Shown: in pieces, positions 6,872-18,232 of the stretch
Position numbering within the stretch: position 1 is the first letter of the stretch
Layout of the letters: every line of letters begins with the position of its first letter
Source of the DNA: a virus
Direction: 5' to 3' (one strand)
Length of the DNA: 27,864 nt
Virus record (IMG/VR): IMGVR_UViG_3300010430_000385
Coordinates: 1 to 27,864 of that record
Program-made: the position numbers and the translations under genes
Notes under the pieces: generated by a model
The model's input: only the letters and a program-made list of their open reading frames with translations
Told to the model about the DNA's origin: nothing
Database searches by the model: none

Positions 6872-8155
6872 ATGCCGGCGCCGGTTCTCAAATCCCTTCC
6901 GCCAAAAGAGGCCGTGGAATTCTTTCGCAAGAAAGGCTACGCGATCGGCTTCAGTTGGCGCGATGTTTGGAAAGAGGAACATGCCGTTGCCTTCACAGTC
7001 GCCAAGGCCATGCGGATCGACATCCTCGAAGACATCCGCCAGGCCACCGACAAGGCAATAGCCAAGGGCATTGCGTTTGGCGAATTCAAGAAGCAGCTGG
7101 CACCGGTGCTGCAGGCCAAGGGCTGGTGGGGCCGCAAGAAAATCGAAGACCCGCTCGACGGCAAGATGAAGTCGGCAACACTCGGATCGAACAGACGGTT
7201 GCGGACGATCTACGATACGAATATGCGCATGGCACATGCTGCCGGCAGATGGGAGCGCATCGAGCGGCTGAAGGACCGGCGTCCTTATCTGCGCTATATT
7301 GCTGTCCAGGACGAGAGAACGCGGCAAACGCACCGTGCCTGGCATGGCACCGTTCTGCCGGCGGATCATGATTTCTGGAACAGCCACTACCCGCCCAACG
7401 GCTGGCGCTGCCGCTGCACGGTCCAGCAGCTGTCTGAGTCCGACCTGAAGAGATACGGACACAAGGTTTCGCCGCGAGCGCCGGATCTCGGCACCCGAGA
7501 TATAGTCGATCGTCGCAACGGTGTCGTGCACAGCGTCCCGCGCGGCATCGATCTCGGCTTTGACTACAATGTCGGCAAGGCCAGGCTGCGCGCCTTCACG
7601 CCGCCGCCGATCGGCGGGCTGCCGCAATCGTTCCCGCCGGGCGTCGGTCTGCCGGATCTGCCGGCGCCGCGCGCGGCCGATGCCAGCAATATTCTCCCCG
7701 GTGGTCTGAAGGACGATGCCTACATCGATTCGTTTCTGACCTCGTTCGGCGCCAGGCGCGGTGGCCCCGGCGTTATTTTCACCGACAAGGCCGGCGAGGA
7801 TCTGGTGATCTCCGAGGATCTTTTCCGAGATACGAACGGGGGGCTTAAGCTGCACAAGGGGCCGCGCAAGCTATTCCTGCCGCTGGTCGCGAGGACGCTT
7901 AGAGAACCGGATGAGATCTGGTGGATATGGCATCAGGACAACAAGAATGCGGACCGATGGTTCCTGCGTCGGCGGTATATCGCGCGCTTTGACGTCGATG
8001 GCCGGCAACGACCCGGGCTCGTCGTCTTCGAGCATGGGCAGGACGGCTGGACCGGCACCACCGCGTTCGCACCGAATGCCGACCGCAGCCCTGCCAGTCA
8101 AAACCGGAGTCTCGATAGCCAGCGAGCCGGCACGCTGGCATATCGCCGGAAATAA
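6872..8155 (+). CDS. Minor head protein F (Mu gp30) with C-terminal PBECR2-like nuclease domain
   Basis: A 427-residue head morphogenesis protein. Residues 100-200 carry the Mu F core: RTIYDTNMRMAHAAGRWE, then YIAVQDERTRQTHRAWHG and PPNGWRCRCTV with the paired Cys. A Pro-rich linker (243-268) leads to a separate domain (about 285-427) whose text FLPLVARTLREPDEIWWIW...WFLRRRYIARFDVDG resembles the PBECR2 (phage Barnase/EndoU/ColicinE5-D/RelE-like) nuclease often fused to such head proteins. The minor head protein may be packaged and enter the host with the DNA. The F assignment is firm; nuclease activity is inferred from family resemblance. A terminator hairpin begins three bases after the stop. 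Confidence 0.9.
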   Translation: MPAPVLKSLPPKEAVEFFRKKGYAIGFSWRDVWKEEHAVAFTVAKAMRIDILEDIRQATDKAIAKGIAFGEFKKQLAPVLQAKGWWGRKKIEDPLDGKMKSATLGSNRRLRTIYDTNMRMAHAAGRWERIERLKDRRPYLRYIAVQDERTRQTHRAWHGTVLPADHDFWNSHYPPNGWRCRCTVQQLSESDLKRYGHKVSPRAPDLGTRDIVDRRNGVVHSVPRGIDLGFDYNVGKARLRAFTPPPIGGLPQSFPPGVGLPDLPAPRAADASNILPGGLKDDAYIDSFLTSFGARRGGPGVIFTDKAGEDLVISEDLFRDTNGGLKLHKGPRKLFLPLVARTLREPDEIWWIWHQDNKNADRWFLRRRYIARFDVDGRQRPGLVVFEHGQDGWTGTTAFAPNADRSPASQNRSLDSQRAGTLAYRRK

Positions 8156-13811: not shown

Positions 13812-15287
13812 ATGTCTCTCAGCTTCAACAACATCCCGATCGACATCCGCACGCCGGGCGCGTTCCTTGAGATCGACAACTCGAACGCCGCGCGCGGCCT
13901 GCCCGGCATGCCGTCGCGCATCCTTGTCATTGGCCAGCGTCTGAGCACCGGCACCGTCGCCGAGGCCGTGCCGACCCAAGTGCTCAGCGAAGATGCCGCC
14001 GAGCTGTATTTCGGTCGCGGCTCGATGTTGCACCTGATGTTCCGCGCCCTGAAGAAGAACAACAAGTGGACCGAGTCCTGGGCGGTTGCGCTCGATGACG
14101 CCGAAGCGGGGGTTAAAGCATCCGGCACCGTCACCTTTGGCGACGGCACCACGGCCGCCGGAACCCTCAACCTTTACATTGCCGGCCAGCGCGTGCGTGT
14201 CGCCGTGGCGGCCGACGACGATGGCAGCGACATCGCCACCAAGGTCGTCGCGGCGATCACGGCCGCGACGGATCTGCCGGTGACGGCTGCGGTCAATGGA
14301 TCGACGGCGGAACAGGTAGACATCACGGCCAGGCACAAAGGGCTTGCCGGCAACGACATCGATCTTCGCGTCAATCACTACCCGGATGAAAAGCTGCCGA
14401 CCGGCCTCACGGTCACGTTCGGGGCCATGTCGTCCGGTTCCGGCAATCCGGACATCGCCGATGCGATCGCGGTTCTCGGCGATCAGTGGTACACGGACTG
14501 GATCGTCCCCTGGACCGATTCCTCGAACCTGACCGCGCTCGAAGCGGAACTCGCCGCCCAGTTCGGCCCGATGACGATGCGCGACGGCTTCGCTTACACC
14601 GGCGCGCGCGGTACGCACTCGGCGCTGACCACGCTCGGTAACGGCCGCAATTCGCCGCACCTTTCGATCATGGGCGCCGACAGCGCACCGTCCGGACCTT
14701 GGGCCTGGGCCGGCGCATACGGCGGCACCGCAGCTTACCACGTCAAGATCGATCCGGCCCGGCCGCTGCAGACGCTGCCGCTGCCGTCGATCATCCCGCC
14801 GAAGGTTGAAGACCGCTTCTTGCTGCAGGAGCGCAACCTGCTGCTCCACGACGGGATTGCCACCTTTACCGTCGACGACGGTGGGATCGTCCGGATCGAG
14901 CGCGCGATCACGACATATCAGACCAACGCGCAGAGCGTCGCCGACCCGTCGTTCCTCGATCTCAACACGATGAAGACGCTCGCCTACCTGCGCTACAGCG
15001 TCCGGGCGCGCATCCTGCAGAAGTTCCCGCGCCACAAGTTGGCGAATGACGGGACGCGCTATGGCCCCGGCCAAGCGGTTGTGACGCCGAAAACGATCCG
15101 CGCCGAGCTTATCGCCCTGTTTAAGCAATGGGAGGAAGCCGGCCTGGTCGAGGACATTGATCAGTTCAAGGACGAGCTGATCGTCGAGCGTGACAGCACC
15201 GACGTCAACCGCGTCAACGCACTGATCCCGCCCAACATCATCAACCAGTTCCGCGTTCTCGCGGGCAACGTCCAATTCGTCCTCTAA
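13812..15287 (+). CDS. Contractile tail sheath protein L (Mu gp39)
   Basis: The 491-residue subunit of the contractile sheath. It shows the Mu L pattern: SFNNIPIDIRTPGAFLEIDNSNA at the start, PSRILVIGQRL, a central WYTDWIVPWTDSSNL, AAYHVKIDPARPLQTLPL, and the conserved C-terminal part FLDLNTMKTLAYLRYSVRARILQKFPRHKLA...NVQFVL. AAGGA lies upstream of the ATG. The protein shows that the phage is a myovirus. The gene is followed 15 bases later by the tube gene. Confidence 0.94.
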   Translation: MSLSFNNIPIDIRTPGAFLEIDNSNAARGLPGMPSRILVIGQRLSTGTVAEAVPTQVLSEDAAELYFGRGSMLHLMFRALKKNNKWTESWAVALDDAEAGVKASGTVTFGDGTTAAGTLNLYIAGQRVRVAVAADDDGSDIATKVVAAITAATDLPVTAAVNGSTAEQVDITARHKGLAGNDIDLRVNHYPDEKLPTGLTVTFGAMSSGSGNPDIADAIAVLGDQWYTDWIVPWTDSSNLTALEAELAAQFGPMTMRDGFAYTGARGTHSALTTLGNGRNSPHLSIMGADSAPSGPWAWAGAYGGTAAYHVKIDPARPLQTLPLPSIIPPKVEDRFLLQERNLLLHDGIATFTVDDGGIVRIERAITTYQTNAQSVADPSFLDLNTMKTLAYLRYSVRARILQKFPRHKLANDGTRYGPGQAVVTPKTIRAELIALFKQWEEAGLVEDIDQFKDELIVERDSTDVNRVNALIPPNIINQFRVLAGNVQFVL

Positions 15288-15302: not shown

Positions 15303-15647
15303 ATGAAACCCGTAGGCGGAACAGTTTACGTACAGATCGACGGCCGGCAGGTCGCGGCGAAGGGCAACTGGACCTTCAACATCGGCAACCCGAAACAAGA
15401 ACAGCAGCAGCATGGCATCACGTCCATGTGGCAGCCGTCCAAACTCGAAGGCGTGATCACCGACGTCGAGGAAGAGGACATGGACGCCCTCACGCAGCTG
15501 CAGGGCGCCACGCTCACGCTGGAGCTTCAGAACGGCAAGACGTGGGTCATGCGCGAAGGCTCGTTCACCGGCGACGGCGACGCGACCACCGAGGCCGGCG
15601 AGATTGCCGTCACCTTCGAGAGCCGCCACAAGCTGGAGAAGGTCTGA
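15303..15647 (+). CDS. Tail tube protein M (Mu gp40)
   Basis: A 114-residue tube subunit that polymerises inside the sheath. KPVGGTVYVQIDGRQVAAKGNWTFNIG at the start and the following beta-rich text (LEGVITDVEEEDMDALTQLQGATLTLELQNGKTWVM...EIAVTFESRHKLEKV) match Mu M-type tube proteins. AAGGAGAG precedes the ATG. Sheath, tube, chaperone and tape-measure order is the standard contractile tail layout. The stop overlaps the chaperone start as TGATG. Confidence 0.92.
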   Translation: MKPVGGTVYVQIDGRQVAAKGNWTFNIGNPKQEQQQHGITSMWQPSKLEGVITDVEEEDMDALTQLQGATLTLELQNGKTWVMREGSFTGDGDATTEAGEIAVTFESRHKLEKV

Positions 15648-15928
15648 TGGCCGGGGAAGTTGTCATCAAGCTCTCCCACCCGATCGAGGCGCACGGTGCA
15701 GAAGTCAGCGAGCTGACGCTGCGCCGTCCGCGCCTGAAGGATCTGAAGGGGATCAGCATGGACAACATCACCGGCGATCTGATGATCGAGCTGGTGGCGC
15801 GCCTGGCGGAGATACCGCCGAGCGCCGCCGGCGAGATCGACGCCGGCGACTTCGAAGCCATCGGCGAGGCGTTCAGCGCTTTTTTTCCAAAGCGTCCGGC
15901 GTCGGGCGCGGCTGGGAAACCAAACTAG
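15647..15928 (+). CDS. Tail assembly chaperone gp41 (zero-frame product)
   Basis: A 93-residue protein of the Mu gp41 type: HGAEVSELTLRRPRLKDLKGISMDNITGDLMIELVARLAEIPPSAAGEIDAGDFEAIGEAFSAFF. It should bind the tape measure protein during tail assembly. The start overlaps the tube stop (TGATG). Near its 3' end lies a T-TTT-TTT slippery run, so a share of ribosomes should move into the -1 frame and make a longer product. Normal termination is at 15926-15928. Confidence 0.88.
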   Translation: MAGEVVIKLSHPIEAHGAEVSELTLRRPRLKDLKGISMDNITGDLMIELVARLAEIPPSAAGEIDAGDFEAIGEAFSAFFPKRPASGAAGKPN

Positions 15929-16044
15929 CTGAGGTCGCTTTCGGGTACGGCTTCGGCCTCGACGAGCTTTGGAATCTGACACTCGACGATCTTGATTTCT
16001 GGCACATGCAACTGAGGGCAATTCATGAGCGATCTCAAAGCTAG
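15647..16044 (+). CDS. Frameshifted tail chaperone (gp41 plus -1 frame extension)
   Basis: Zero frame through 15886, then -1 frame from 15886 to the stop at 16042-16044, giving 132 residues: the first 80 of gp41 plus 52 more. The extension contains FGYGFGLDELWNLTLDDLDFWHMQLRAIHE, the small aromatic helical block typical of the second half of tail chaperones such as P2 E+E'. It has no start of its own and is open only in the -1 frame, so it is explained by programmed frameshifting. Tail chaperone frameshifting is conserved in dsDNA phages; Mu itself is reported to use -2. The frame ends 20 bases inside the tape measure gene. Confidence 0.85.
15880..15909 (+). promoter_or_regulatory. -1 ribosomal frameshift signal
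   Basis: The slippery heptamer T-TTT-TTT (15880-15886) lies in the right phase (GCT TTT TTT CCA). Five bases later a hairpin begins: GCGTCCG (15892-15898) pairs with CGGGCGC (15903-15909) around a GCGT loop, seven pairs with one G-U. Heptamer phase, spacer and stem all fit a standard -1 stimulatory site, and the -1 frame stays open for 52 codons with family-like sequence. Confidence 0.85.
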
Positions 16045-17800
16045 CATTCTTCTCCAGGCGATCGACCGGATGACGGGCCCCATGCGCGGGGCCGTCACCA
16101 ATTTCAAGCGTGCTACGGGTGAAATGGTCGCCGCCGGGAAAAAAGCGCAGGAGAGCATGAAGGGCTTCCGGGACGCTTCCAAAAACGTGAACGATTTTGG
16201 CAAGTCTATGGCACTCCGCGTAACAGCGCCGATCGTCGCCTTCGGTGGCCTGACCTTGCGTTCGGCCGCGAACTTCGAGGCCGCGATGAACAAGGTCGGT
16301 GTCCTCACGAATGCAACGGGACAGGATCTGAAAAGCTTGGAGGCTCAGGCACGTGAACTCGGCCGCACCACACAATACTCAGCTTCCCAGGCGGCGGAAG
16401 CGATGAGCTTTCTGGCGATGGCCGGCTTTAACACCGAAAAGATTATCGGCTCGATGCCGGGAACGCTGCAGCTTGCGGCAGCTGCAAACATGGACCTTGC
16501 CCAGGCGGCGGATATCGTCTCCAACGTCATGACAGGGTATGGCTTTGAGGCGGAGCAGCTTACCCGCATCAACGACGTTCTCGTCAAAGCCTTCACCAGT
16601 GCGAACACGGATCTGACGCAATTTGCCGAGGCGATGAAAATTGCCGGTCCGGTCGCTAAGGGCATGAACCTTGACTTCGAAGAGACGGCTGCCGTTATCG
16701 GCATTATGGGGAATGCGGGCTTCCAGGCGTCGCTTGCCGGTACTGCGCTGCGAGGAACGCTATCGAAACTGTCCAACCCCGCGAAGGATGCTCAGAGGGC
16801 GCTTGCCCGCCTTGGCATTCGCAAGGCCGATATCATGGATTCAGCCGGGCAACTGAAATCGCTGACTGAGATCATTAAAGTTCTGGAGGTCAAGGGCGCC
16901 GGCGCTGCCGACTTGCTGGAAATTTTCGGCGAGCGTGCCGGCCCGGCGATGACCGCCGTCTTGTCACAGGGATCATCTGCCGTCGCCGAACTCACGGCAA
17001 AGCTGCAGGAAGCCGGCGGCACGGCGAAGCGCGTTGCCGACGCGCAGATGAAGGGCGCCGCGGGTGAAGTCCGGAGGCTGGCGTCGGCCTTCGAAGGCCT
17101 ACAGCTGGCGATTGCCGACAGCGGACTTTTGCAGTGGTTTACGGACGCGGTGCGCAACATGACGGACTGGGTACAGGGCCTCTCGGAATCCTCTCAGACA
17201 GCGCTCAAATGGGGCACGATTATCGCCGGCATCGCCGCTTTGATTGCGCCGCTGATCATCGCGATCGGCTCATTGGGATTGGCCATAAACGGTCTCGTCG
17301 TCGGCGGCGCCGCTTTGGGGGCGTTCTTCACGGCGTTGACAGGCGGATTTGCCGCGATGTCAGGGGCGGTCACGACCTTTGGGGCCGCTCTGATGGCGAC
17401 GCCGATCGGTTGGATTATGGCGGCTATAGCAGCCCTCGCCGCTGCAGCTTACCTAATCTATGCCAATTGGGAGCCAATCAGCGCGTTCTTCTCAGATCTA
17501 TGGGATGGGGTCGTTTCCAATTTCACAAGCGCGCTTGAGGCCATCCGAAACGGCTTAGGCGCGATCACAGATCTGGTGCCTAGCGGCGTCAGGGGCTTTT
17601 TTGGCTTGGGAGATGATCGGCCACCGGCGGCGGGTGCTTCCGCATTTCCAAATGGCATTGGCGGCGGTCGCAGCACGGTCGGCGGCGAGATCAACATCCG
17701 GATCGACAGCGAGGGGCGGCCGCGCGTGCGCGGGTTGAAATCGAGCAATAAGGATGTCGGGCTGACGGTTGACACCGGTCTCGTGATGGAAGGCGGTTAA
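16025..17800 (+). CDS. Tail tape measure protein (Mu gp42)
   Basis: A 591-residue protein that sets tail length and leads DNA into the host. After an initial helical part (1-60) comes the phage tape measure core: NKVGVLTNATGQDLKSLEAQARELGRTTQYSASQAAEAMSFLAMAGF...GTLQLAAAANMDLAQAADIVSNVMTGYGF. Several hydrophobic segments lie at about residues 395-485 and could insert in the host membrane. The C-terminus is Gly/Arg-rich. At about 0.15 nm per residue this implies a tail near 90 nm, close to Mu. The stop shares two bases with the stop of the convergent minus-strand gene. Confidence 0.92.
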   Translation: MSDLKASILLQAIDRMTGPMRGAVTNFKRATGEMVAAGKKAQESMKGFRDASKNVNDFGKSMALRVTAPIVAFGGLTLRSAANFEAAMNKVGVLTNATGQDLKSLEAQARELGRTTQYSASQAAEAMSFLAMAGFNTEKIIGSMPGTLQLAAAANMDLAQAADIVSNVMTGYGFEAEQLTRINDVLVKAFTSANTDLTQFAEAMKIAGPVAKGMNLDFEETAAVIGIMGNAGFQASLAGTALRGTLSKLSNPAKDAQRALARLGIRKADIMDSAGQLKSLTEIIKVLEVKGAGAADLLEIFGERAGPAMTAVLSQGSSAVAELTAKLQEAGGTAKRVADAQMKGAAGEVRRLASAFEGLQLAIADSGLLQWFTDAVRNMTDWVQGLSESSQTALKWGTIIAGIAALIAPLIIAIGSLGLAINGLVVGGAALGAFFTALTGGFAAMSGAVTTFGAALMATPIGWIMAAIAALAAAAYLIYANWEPISAFFSDLWDGVVSNFTSALEAIRNGLGAITDLVPSGVRGFFGLGDDRPPAAGASAFPNGIGGGRSTVGGEINIRIDSEGRPRVRGLKSSNKDVGLTVDTGLVMEGG

Positions 17801-18180
17801 TGCAGATGCGTGCTACCGAGAACCATCAGATCCTTGGATTTGCCGATCGGCGCGCCGTTGAGCCGTTTGCAAAGATCCTTGCCGCCCTCAAGAACGTAGC
17901 CTTGACGTGCGTGCTTGTTCAAGACGGCGATCTCCGCAACACCGTCCAGAACGTGCGGGCGCGTAATCTGTCCCATGCAGACGCCGGCGGTGATGACGCT
18001 AATATACATCCGGTCGGTGACCCGGTTCTGCGGCAGAACAATCTCGGCGCGCTCTCCGGCAACGCGGGCGTCGATCGGCGCCCACATCTCAAGGGCCTTC
18101 ATAAGACCGTCTCGGGTTTCGGCGCTGGCCGCGGCGGCCGCCAGGCAAAACAGAACGGCAAGCGTGAAGCGTTTCAACAT
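17797..18180 (-). CDS. Secreted small protein, antisense moron in the tail operon
   Basis: A 127-residue protein with a clear signal peptide (KR at 3-4, hydrophobic 5-18, ASA-E cleavage after residue 20) and two Cys in the mature part (68 and 104) that could form a disulfide in the periplasm. GAGGAG sits nine bases before its ATG. No family is recognised (RAEIVLPQNRVTDRMYISVITAGVCMGQ...LEGGKDLCKRLNG). It lies between tape measure and N, on the opposite strand to every neighbour, and converges on the tape measure stop. This is the layout of a moron, a lysogen-expressed cargo gene. The plus-strand frame over the same bases has no signal or family match. Confidence 0.75.
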   Translation of the reverse strand: MLKRFTLAVLFCLAAAAASAETRDGLMKALEMWAPIDARVAGERAEIVLPQNRVTDRMYISVITAGVCMGQITRPHVLDGVAEIAVLNKHARQGYVLEGGKDLCKRLNGAPIGKSKDLMVLGSTHLH

Positions 18181-18204
18181 GGCGTGTATCTCCTCATTCC
18201 GGGG

Positions 18205-18232
18205 AGCATAGCACCATGAGCTGGCGCGACAA
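18205..18232 (-). promoter_or_regulatory. Possible promoter of the antisense moron
   Basis: On the minus strand, TTGTCG (18232-18227) and TATGCT (18210-18205) stand 16 bases apart, about 25 bases before the moron ATG, with the RBS between. Each hexamer matches four of six sigma-70 positions. It overlaps the ribosome site and first codons of N on the other strand. Low-to-moderate confidence. Confidence 0.4.

Follow-up and report, generated by a model that had tools for sequence, protein, structure and literature searches.

A tail assembly chaperone gene of the P2 E/E' type with a predicted programmed -1 ribosomal frameshift, in a phage whose head and tail modules are Mu-like

Tail chaperone genes can be extended by frameshifts of -1, -2 or +1, which have been reviewed, and phage Mu needs a shift of -2 (PMC5009743). 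An earlier note on the IMG/VR virus record studied here, whose whole length of 27,864 bases we call the window, described a -1 slippery site in what it took to be the tail chaperone gene of a Mu-like phage, and suggested a change of shift size within this group of phages. The locus raises two questions: whether ribosomes are programmed to slip at this site, and whether a shift of -1 here marks a departure from the -2 of Mu. We conclude that ribosomes are very probably programmed to slip by -1 at this locus, in a tail assembly chaperone gene of the P2 E/E' type, and that the phage carrying it has head and tail modules like those of Mu.

The zero frame of the chaperone gene (15647-15928, plus strand) runs from an ATG at 15647 to a TAG at 15926-15928 and encodes a product of 93 amino acids. 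Around the site it reads GCG TTC AGC GCT TTT TTT CCA AAG, and the slippery heptamer T TTT TTT (15880-15886, plus strand) lies across the codons GCT TTT TTT CCA in X XXY YYZ phase. A -1 frame begins at the heptamer and is open for 52 codons up to a TAG at 16042-16044 (block at 15886-16044, plus strand), such that a -1 shift would give a product of 132 amino acids whose C-terminal part comes from the -1 block. On the same strand the heptamer is followed by a 5-nucleotide spacer, ccaaa (15887-15891), and a possible stimulatory hairpin, gcgtccg/cgggcgc (15892-15909), which has 7 base pairs including one G-U pair, a 4-nucleotide loop and a folding energy of -12.8 kcal/mol (ViennaRNA). The in-phase heptamer, the spacer, the 7-bp stem and the open -1 frame are thus all present in the sequence as the earlier note had described them. 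A second contig spans the frameshift site and is 99.97% identical to the window over 7.4 kb with 0 gaps, so an assembly error at the site is unlikely. We also considered a separate start for the -1 block and rejected it, as the sole start codon in the block is an ATG at 16006, near its end; because no start codon precedes this one, the block would be made only as a fusion.

The genes around the site are those expected of a tail chaperone in a Mu-like tail. The order is sheath, tube, chaperone and tape measure, all on the plus strand: the sheath gene (13812-15287; PF04984; PHROG 165, E=4e-196) is in the position of Mu L and its product is 46% identical to that of Mu, the tube gene (15303-15647; PF10618, E=4.9e-19) is in the position of Mu M, and the tape measure gene (16025-17800; PF10145, E=6.6e-46; PHROG 1533) starts within the end of the -1 block, overlapping it by 20 nucleotides. 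The chaperone gene thus sits between tube and tape measure. Mu-type structural genes are found in the Mu order: gp27, portal, gpF, protease, gpT, gp37, sheath and tube, then the genes for gpP-like, gp45, gp46, gpJ-like baseplate and gp48 proteins. PF02914, the family of MuA-type transposition, had no match in the window, a 27.9-kb record that may be a fragment, in a search in which no control genome matched either. Some other genes of this record deserve mention in their own right. The Mu gpF-like head protein (6872-8155) carries a C-terminal PBECR2 nuclease-like domain (PF18810, E=5e-29). An ORF at 1238-2290 has a class 3 lipase domain (PF01764) and adjoins a GH108 endolysin gene (353-973), which is unusual in a phage lysis region. 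A 139-residue ORF (17800-18219), between the tape measure gene and a DNA circulation protein gene, is without a Pfam match.

In the mechanism that we propose, most ribosomes would stop at 15928 and release the 93-residue chaperone. Slippage would take place in a minority of ribosomes: with T TTT TTT paired to tRNA-Phe in both the A and the P site, these would move back one base and continue to 16044. The long form would then be a chaperone of 132 residues, extended at its C-terminus by a helical block with aromatic residues. If the analogy with P2 E/E' and lambda G/GT holds, the short product may coat the tape measure and the long one may link it to the tube subunits.

The hairpin might help the ribosomes to slip. 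Stems of at least 7 bp occur at this spacing at 3.8% of positions, and a 24-nucleotide fold as stable as the hairpin in 0.8% of windows of that size. However, in a folding test of the T7 sites of three related loci (L012, L088 and L089), the 7-bp stem was not kept at the same spacing, so the role of the hairpin is uncertain. The window has no T7 other than that at 15880-15886; shuffled sequences are expected to hold 1.26 on both strands, and thus the run taken alone is unremarkable. Among 31 plausible genes we counted nine in-phase X XXY YYZ heptamers, two of which consist of A and T only and one of which, at this site, is TTTTTTT, and the Phe codons of these genes are TTC (195) more often than TTT (79). 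Chance is ruled out by the relatives, in which a -1 block again comes with a -1 heptamer in the equivalent position.

Few of these relatives came from searching viral contigs with a single protein (chaperone, tube or sheath); the sheath alignment, whole-genome searches and the gp41 alignment supplied enough of them. The ORF pairs were chosen manually, with mistakes possible at the most distant loci. We left out L082, which is masked in the needed stretch, L008, which ends inside the sheath, and L019 (Paraburkholderia phage IPK, an UNVERIFIED record), in which the -1 frame stops before the block; the stops in L019 lie at ~700-900, after the likely slip site and ahead of the block, and could reflect a sequence error or another route.

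L012, L088 and L089 have T TTT TTT in the corresponding position. In L006, the nearest relative by sheath (79% identity), the site is C CCT TTC and the block is still in -1; in L007 (sheath 73%) the block is in -1 without a canonical heptamer (GAG GTT TTT ACC). L013 has T TTT TTA and Bordetella phage PBb002 has T TTT TTG. In our curated table of 50 distinct -1 loci, T TTT TTN is present in 31, other heptamers include A AAA AAG, G GGT TTT, C CCT TTN, A AAT TTT and G GGA AAG, and 3 loci are without a canonical heptamer. Two loci of one clade, most of which otherwise has A AAA AAG and -1, have the block in the -2/+1 frame: L084 at GGC AAA AAA ACT, and L086 at a site that is unclear (GCC AAA AGG).

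This variety of sites bears on whether the ribosome is responsible at all. Homopolymer runs can cause transcriptional slippage, and since the T7 site is a homopolymer, RNA polymerase could in principle join the two frames by gain or loss of bases in the mRNA. However, seven T residues are short for transcriptional slippage, and at the same position relatives carry C CCT TTC, T TTT TTG, G GGT TTT and A AAT TTT, which are -1 ribosomal heptamers with no long homopolymer. We therefore regard slippage by the polymerase as highly improbable and favor slippage by the ribosome.

The downstream block itself appears to be maintained. As protein it is 65% identical to that of the window in L012 and 43-54% identical in L006, L088 and L089, with 45-54% for L088 and L089. 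Between the window and L012 (sheath 74%) the differences in the block fall 7, 9 and 27 times at the first, second and third codon positions of the -1 frame (p=7e-5); this third-position bias is absent in the more distant L088 and L089, as expected near saturation. By this pattern of substitution, the block is conserved as a protein in the -1 frame. Furthermore, homologous blocks are found in other tail chaperones, among them chaperones whose block is reached by -2. These results speak against the view that there is no functional shift, in which the -1 block would be a relic or open merely by chance, the short protein being sufficient. A 52-codon open -1 frame is possible by chance in DNA of 62% GC, and KS10, a Mu-like phage, was reported without a recognisable frameshift site (PMC2628397). 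However, the block recurs in relatives as a conserved protein, and its homology to other chaperone blocks stands out from shuffled and reversed controls, which makes this the least probable of the alternatives we weighed. A functional ribosomal shift to -1 would account for the block.

We then ask to which family of chaperones the gene belongs. The 93-residue product matches Pfam PF10109 (Phage_TAC_7) with E=4.8e-16 and 59 bits, compared to a cut-off of 25, and PHROG 166 (tail protein) with E=9.7e-18. In the Pfam search it had no match to PF23746 (Gp41_Mu), the family that is matched by Mu, B23, L009, L011, L114, L119, L167 and L177. In a one-against-one comparison, the fusion protein of the window aligned with the P2 E+E' fusion over nearly the whole length (E=5e-7), and P2 E+E', for which a -1 frameshift is annotated, carries GGT TTT TTG at the position that corresponds to GCT TTT TTT of the window. 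Profile comparison by hhalign gave a probability of 85% (E=6e-6) between the chaperone domains of the P2 E and gp41 types and of 94.5% (E=8e-8) between their C-terminal blocks, each in a single comparison; column-shuffled or reversed controls did not exceed 0.84%. Judged by these profiles, the two types are distantly related, and by its family matches the chaperone of the window is of the P2 E type inside a tail that is Mu-like in its sheath, tube position, tape measure and baseplate. Thus the earlier claim of a tail chaperone gene with a programmed -1 frameshift is supported by the PF10109 match, the gene order and the -1 heptamers of relatives, and its assignment to a Mu-like phage holds for the head and tail modules but not for the chaperone, which is not gp41.

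Because the chaperone is of the P2 E type, -1 would be its usual state and no change from the -2 of Mu. The contrary reading, that a -2 site of the Mu gp41 type was turned into a -1 site in this phage, draws on the Mu-like tail and on two close relatives, L167 and L169 (sheath 68-69% identical to the window), which carry true gp41 at ~2501-2860 with CGG GGG CGA and the block in -2. However, the window chaperone has PF10109 without a PF23746 match, and its joint is a T run with no trace of the gp41 RG codons; the joint typical of gp41 (-2/+1 frame, CGG GGG CGN) is absent from the chaperone gene of the window, where the block is in -1. Among these sheath neighbours, the window, L006, L012 and L007 are all -1. 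Since the type of chaperone also differs between the window and L167/L169, the difference in shift looks like gene exchange rather than a change of shift at one site, and we consider conversion of a gp41 site in this phage very unlikely. A -1 site of the P2 type fits the locus better.

Has the shift size changed anywhere among Mu-like tails? The gp41 alignment led to 65 viral loci. In Mu, D108, MuM16-2, B23, martha, Pmp9 and Vibrio 1.028 the block is reached by -2 (or +1), in agreement with the shift of -2 that the earlier note had given for Mu. Sixty distinct gp41-type sequences need -2 or +1, which cannot be told apart by sequence alone, such that -2 is taken from the Mu literature (PMC5009743); GGG followed by CGN is found in 59 of the 60, and the last codon is CGA in 56 of these 59. 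In five gp41 loci the block lies in -1 instead, and the -1 site occupies the codons that form the -2 site elsewhere: L114 (2800-2833) and L177 (2040-2074) with CGG GGA AAG, L009 (6150-6186) with CGG GGG GAA, L011 (6170-6208) with CGG GGG GAG, and L119 (2560-2586) with AAG GGG GAA. For each of the five, the zero-frame product matches Gp41_Mu at E≤2e-29. The five are thus true gp41, and the shift size has therefore changed at a homologous site inside gp41. These loci include draft genomes and metagenome contigs in which a G run could be misread; a simple sequencing error is spoken against by the flanking codons, which differ too (no CGA).

On a sheath tree of 105 rows, built quickly with a simple model, the distribution of -1 and -2 needs about 12 changes, and the -1 gp41 group accounts for three changes, all forced by well-supported branches. 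The suggestion that shift size has changed within Mu-like phages thus finds support in these changes and in the five -1 gp41 loci, while the site in the window, which had prompted it, is no such change. It seems likely to us that Mu-like tail chaperones change their shift size readily, with the two protein parts kept and the joint moving between -1 and -2. Within gp41, the RG codons would have passed, three or more times on the sheath tree, from CGG GGG CGA to CGG GGA AAG, CGG GGG GAR or AAG GGG GAA, and close sheath relatives such as the window and L167 differ in the whole type of chaperone and thereby in shift size.

A shift of -1 in a Mu-like phage is in itself already reported, as the Mu-like phage PaMx73 was predicted to shift by -1 at T TTT TTC and the -2 of Mu was called exceptional (PMC4378225). 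For -1 sites within gp41 we found no description in the literature searched; the phage list of Xu et al. 2004 may include such cases. The window site is one more P2-type -1 frameshift and is ordinary. The wider comparison gives natural pairs of related chaperone genes in which the two protein parts are the same and the shift that joins them is either -1 or -2, and such pairs make the determinants of slip size testable, for example whether CGA after CGG GGG is needed for -2.

Compared to known systems, the window locus shares with the core ORFs 35/36 of PaMx73 (P. aeruginosa) a Mu-like phage and a predicted -1 shift at a T run, a likeness drawn from the published description; unlike the window, PaMx73 has a siphovirus-type tail (PMC4378225). 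Phage P2 E/E+E' is similar to the window in its PF10109 family, its place before the tape measure gene and its -1 shift; its heptamer ends in G whereas that of the window ends in T, and the window is Mu-like in its remaining head and tail genes. Mu gp41, with its frameshift extension, lies at the same genome position as the window chaperone and has a distantly related chaperone domain and C-terminal block. In contrast to the window, which is without a PF23746 match and uses a T run and -1, Mu gp41 is a PF23746 member that requires -2 (or +1) at CGG GGG CGA. The heptamer of phage lambda is G GGA AAG, which is carried by the gp41 loci L114 and L177 and not by the window. In lambda G/GT a chaperone is accompanied by a rarer extension made by a -1 frameshift (PMC5009743), and the same arrangement is predicted for the window.
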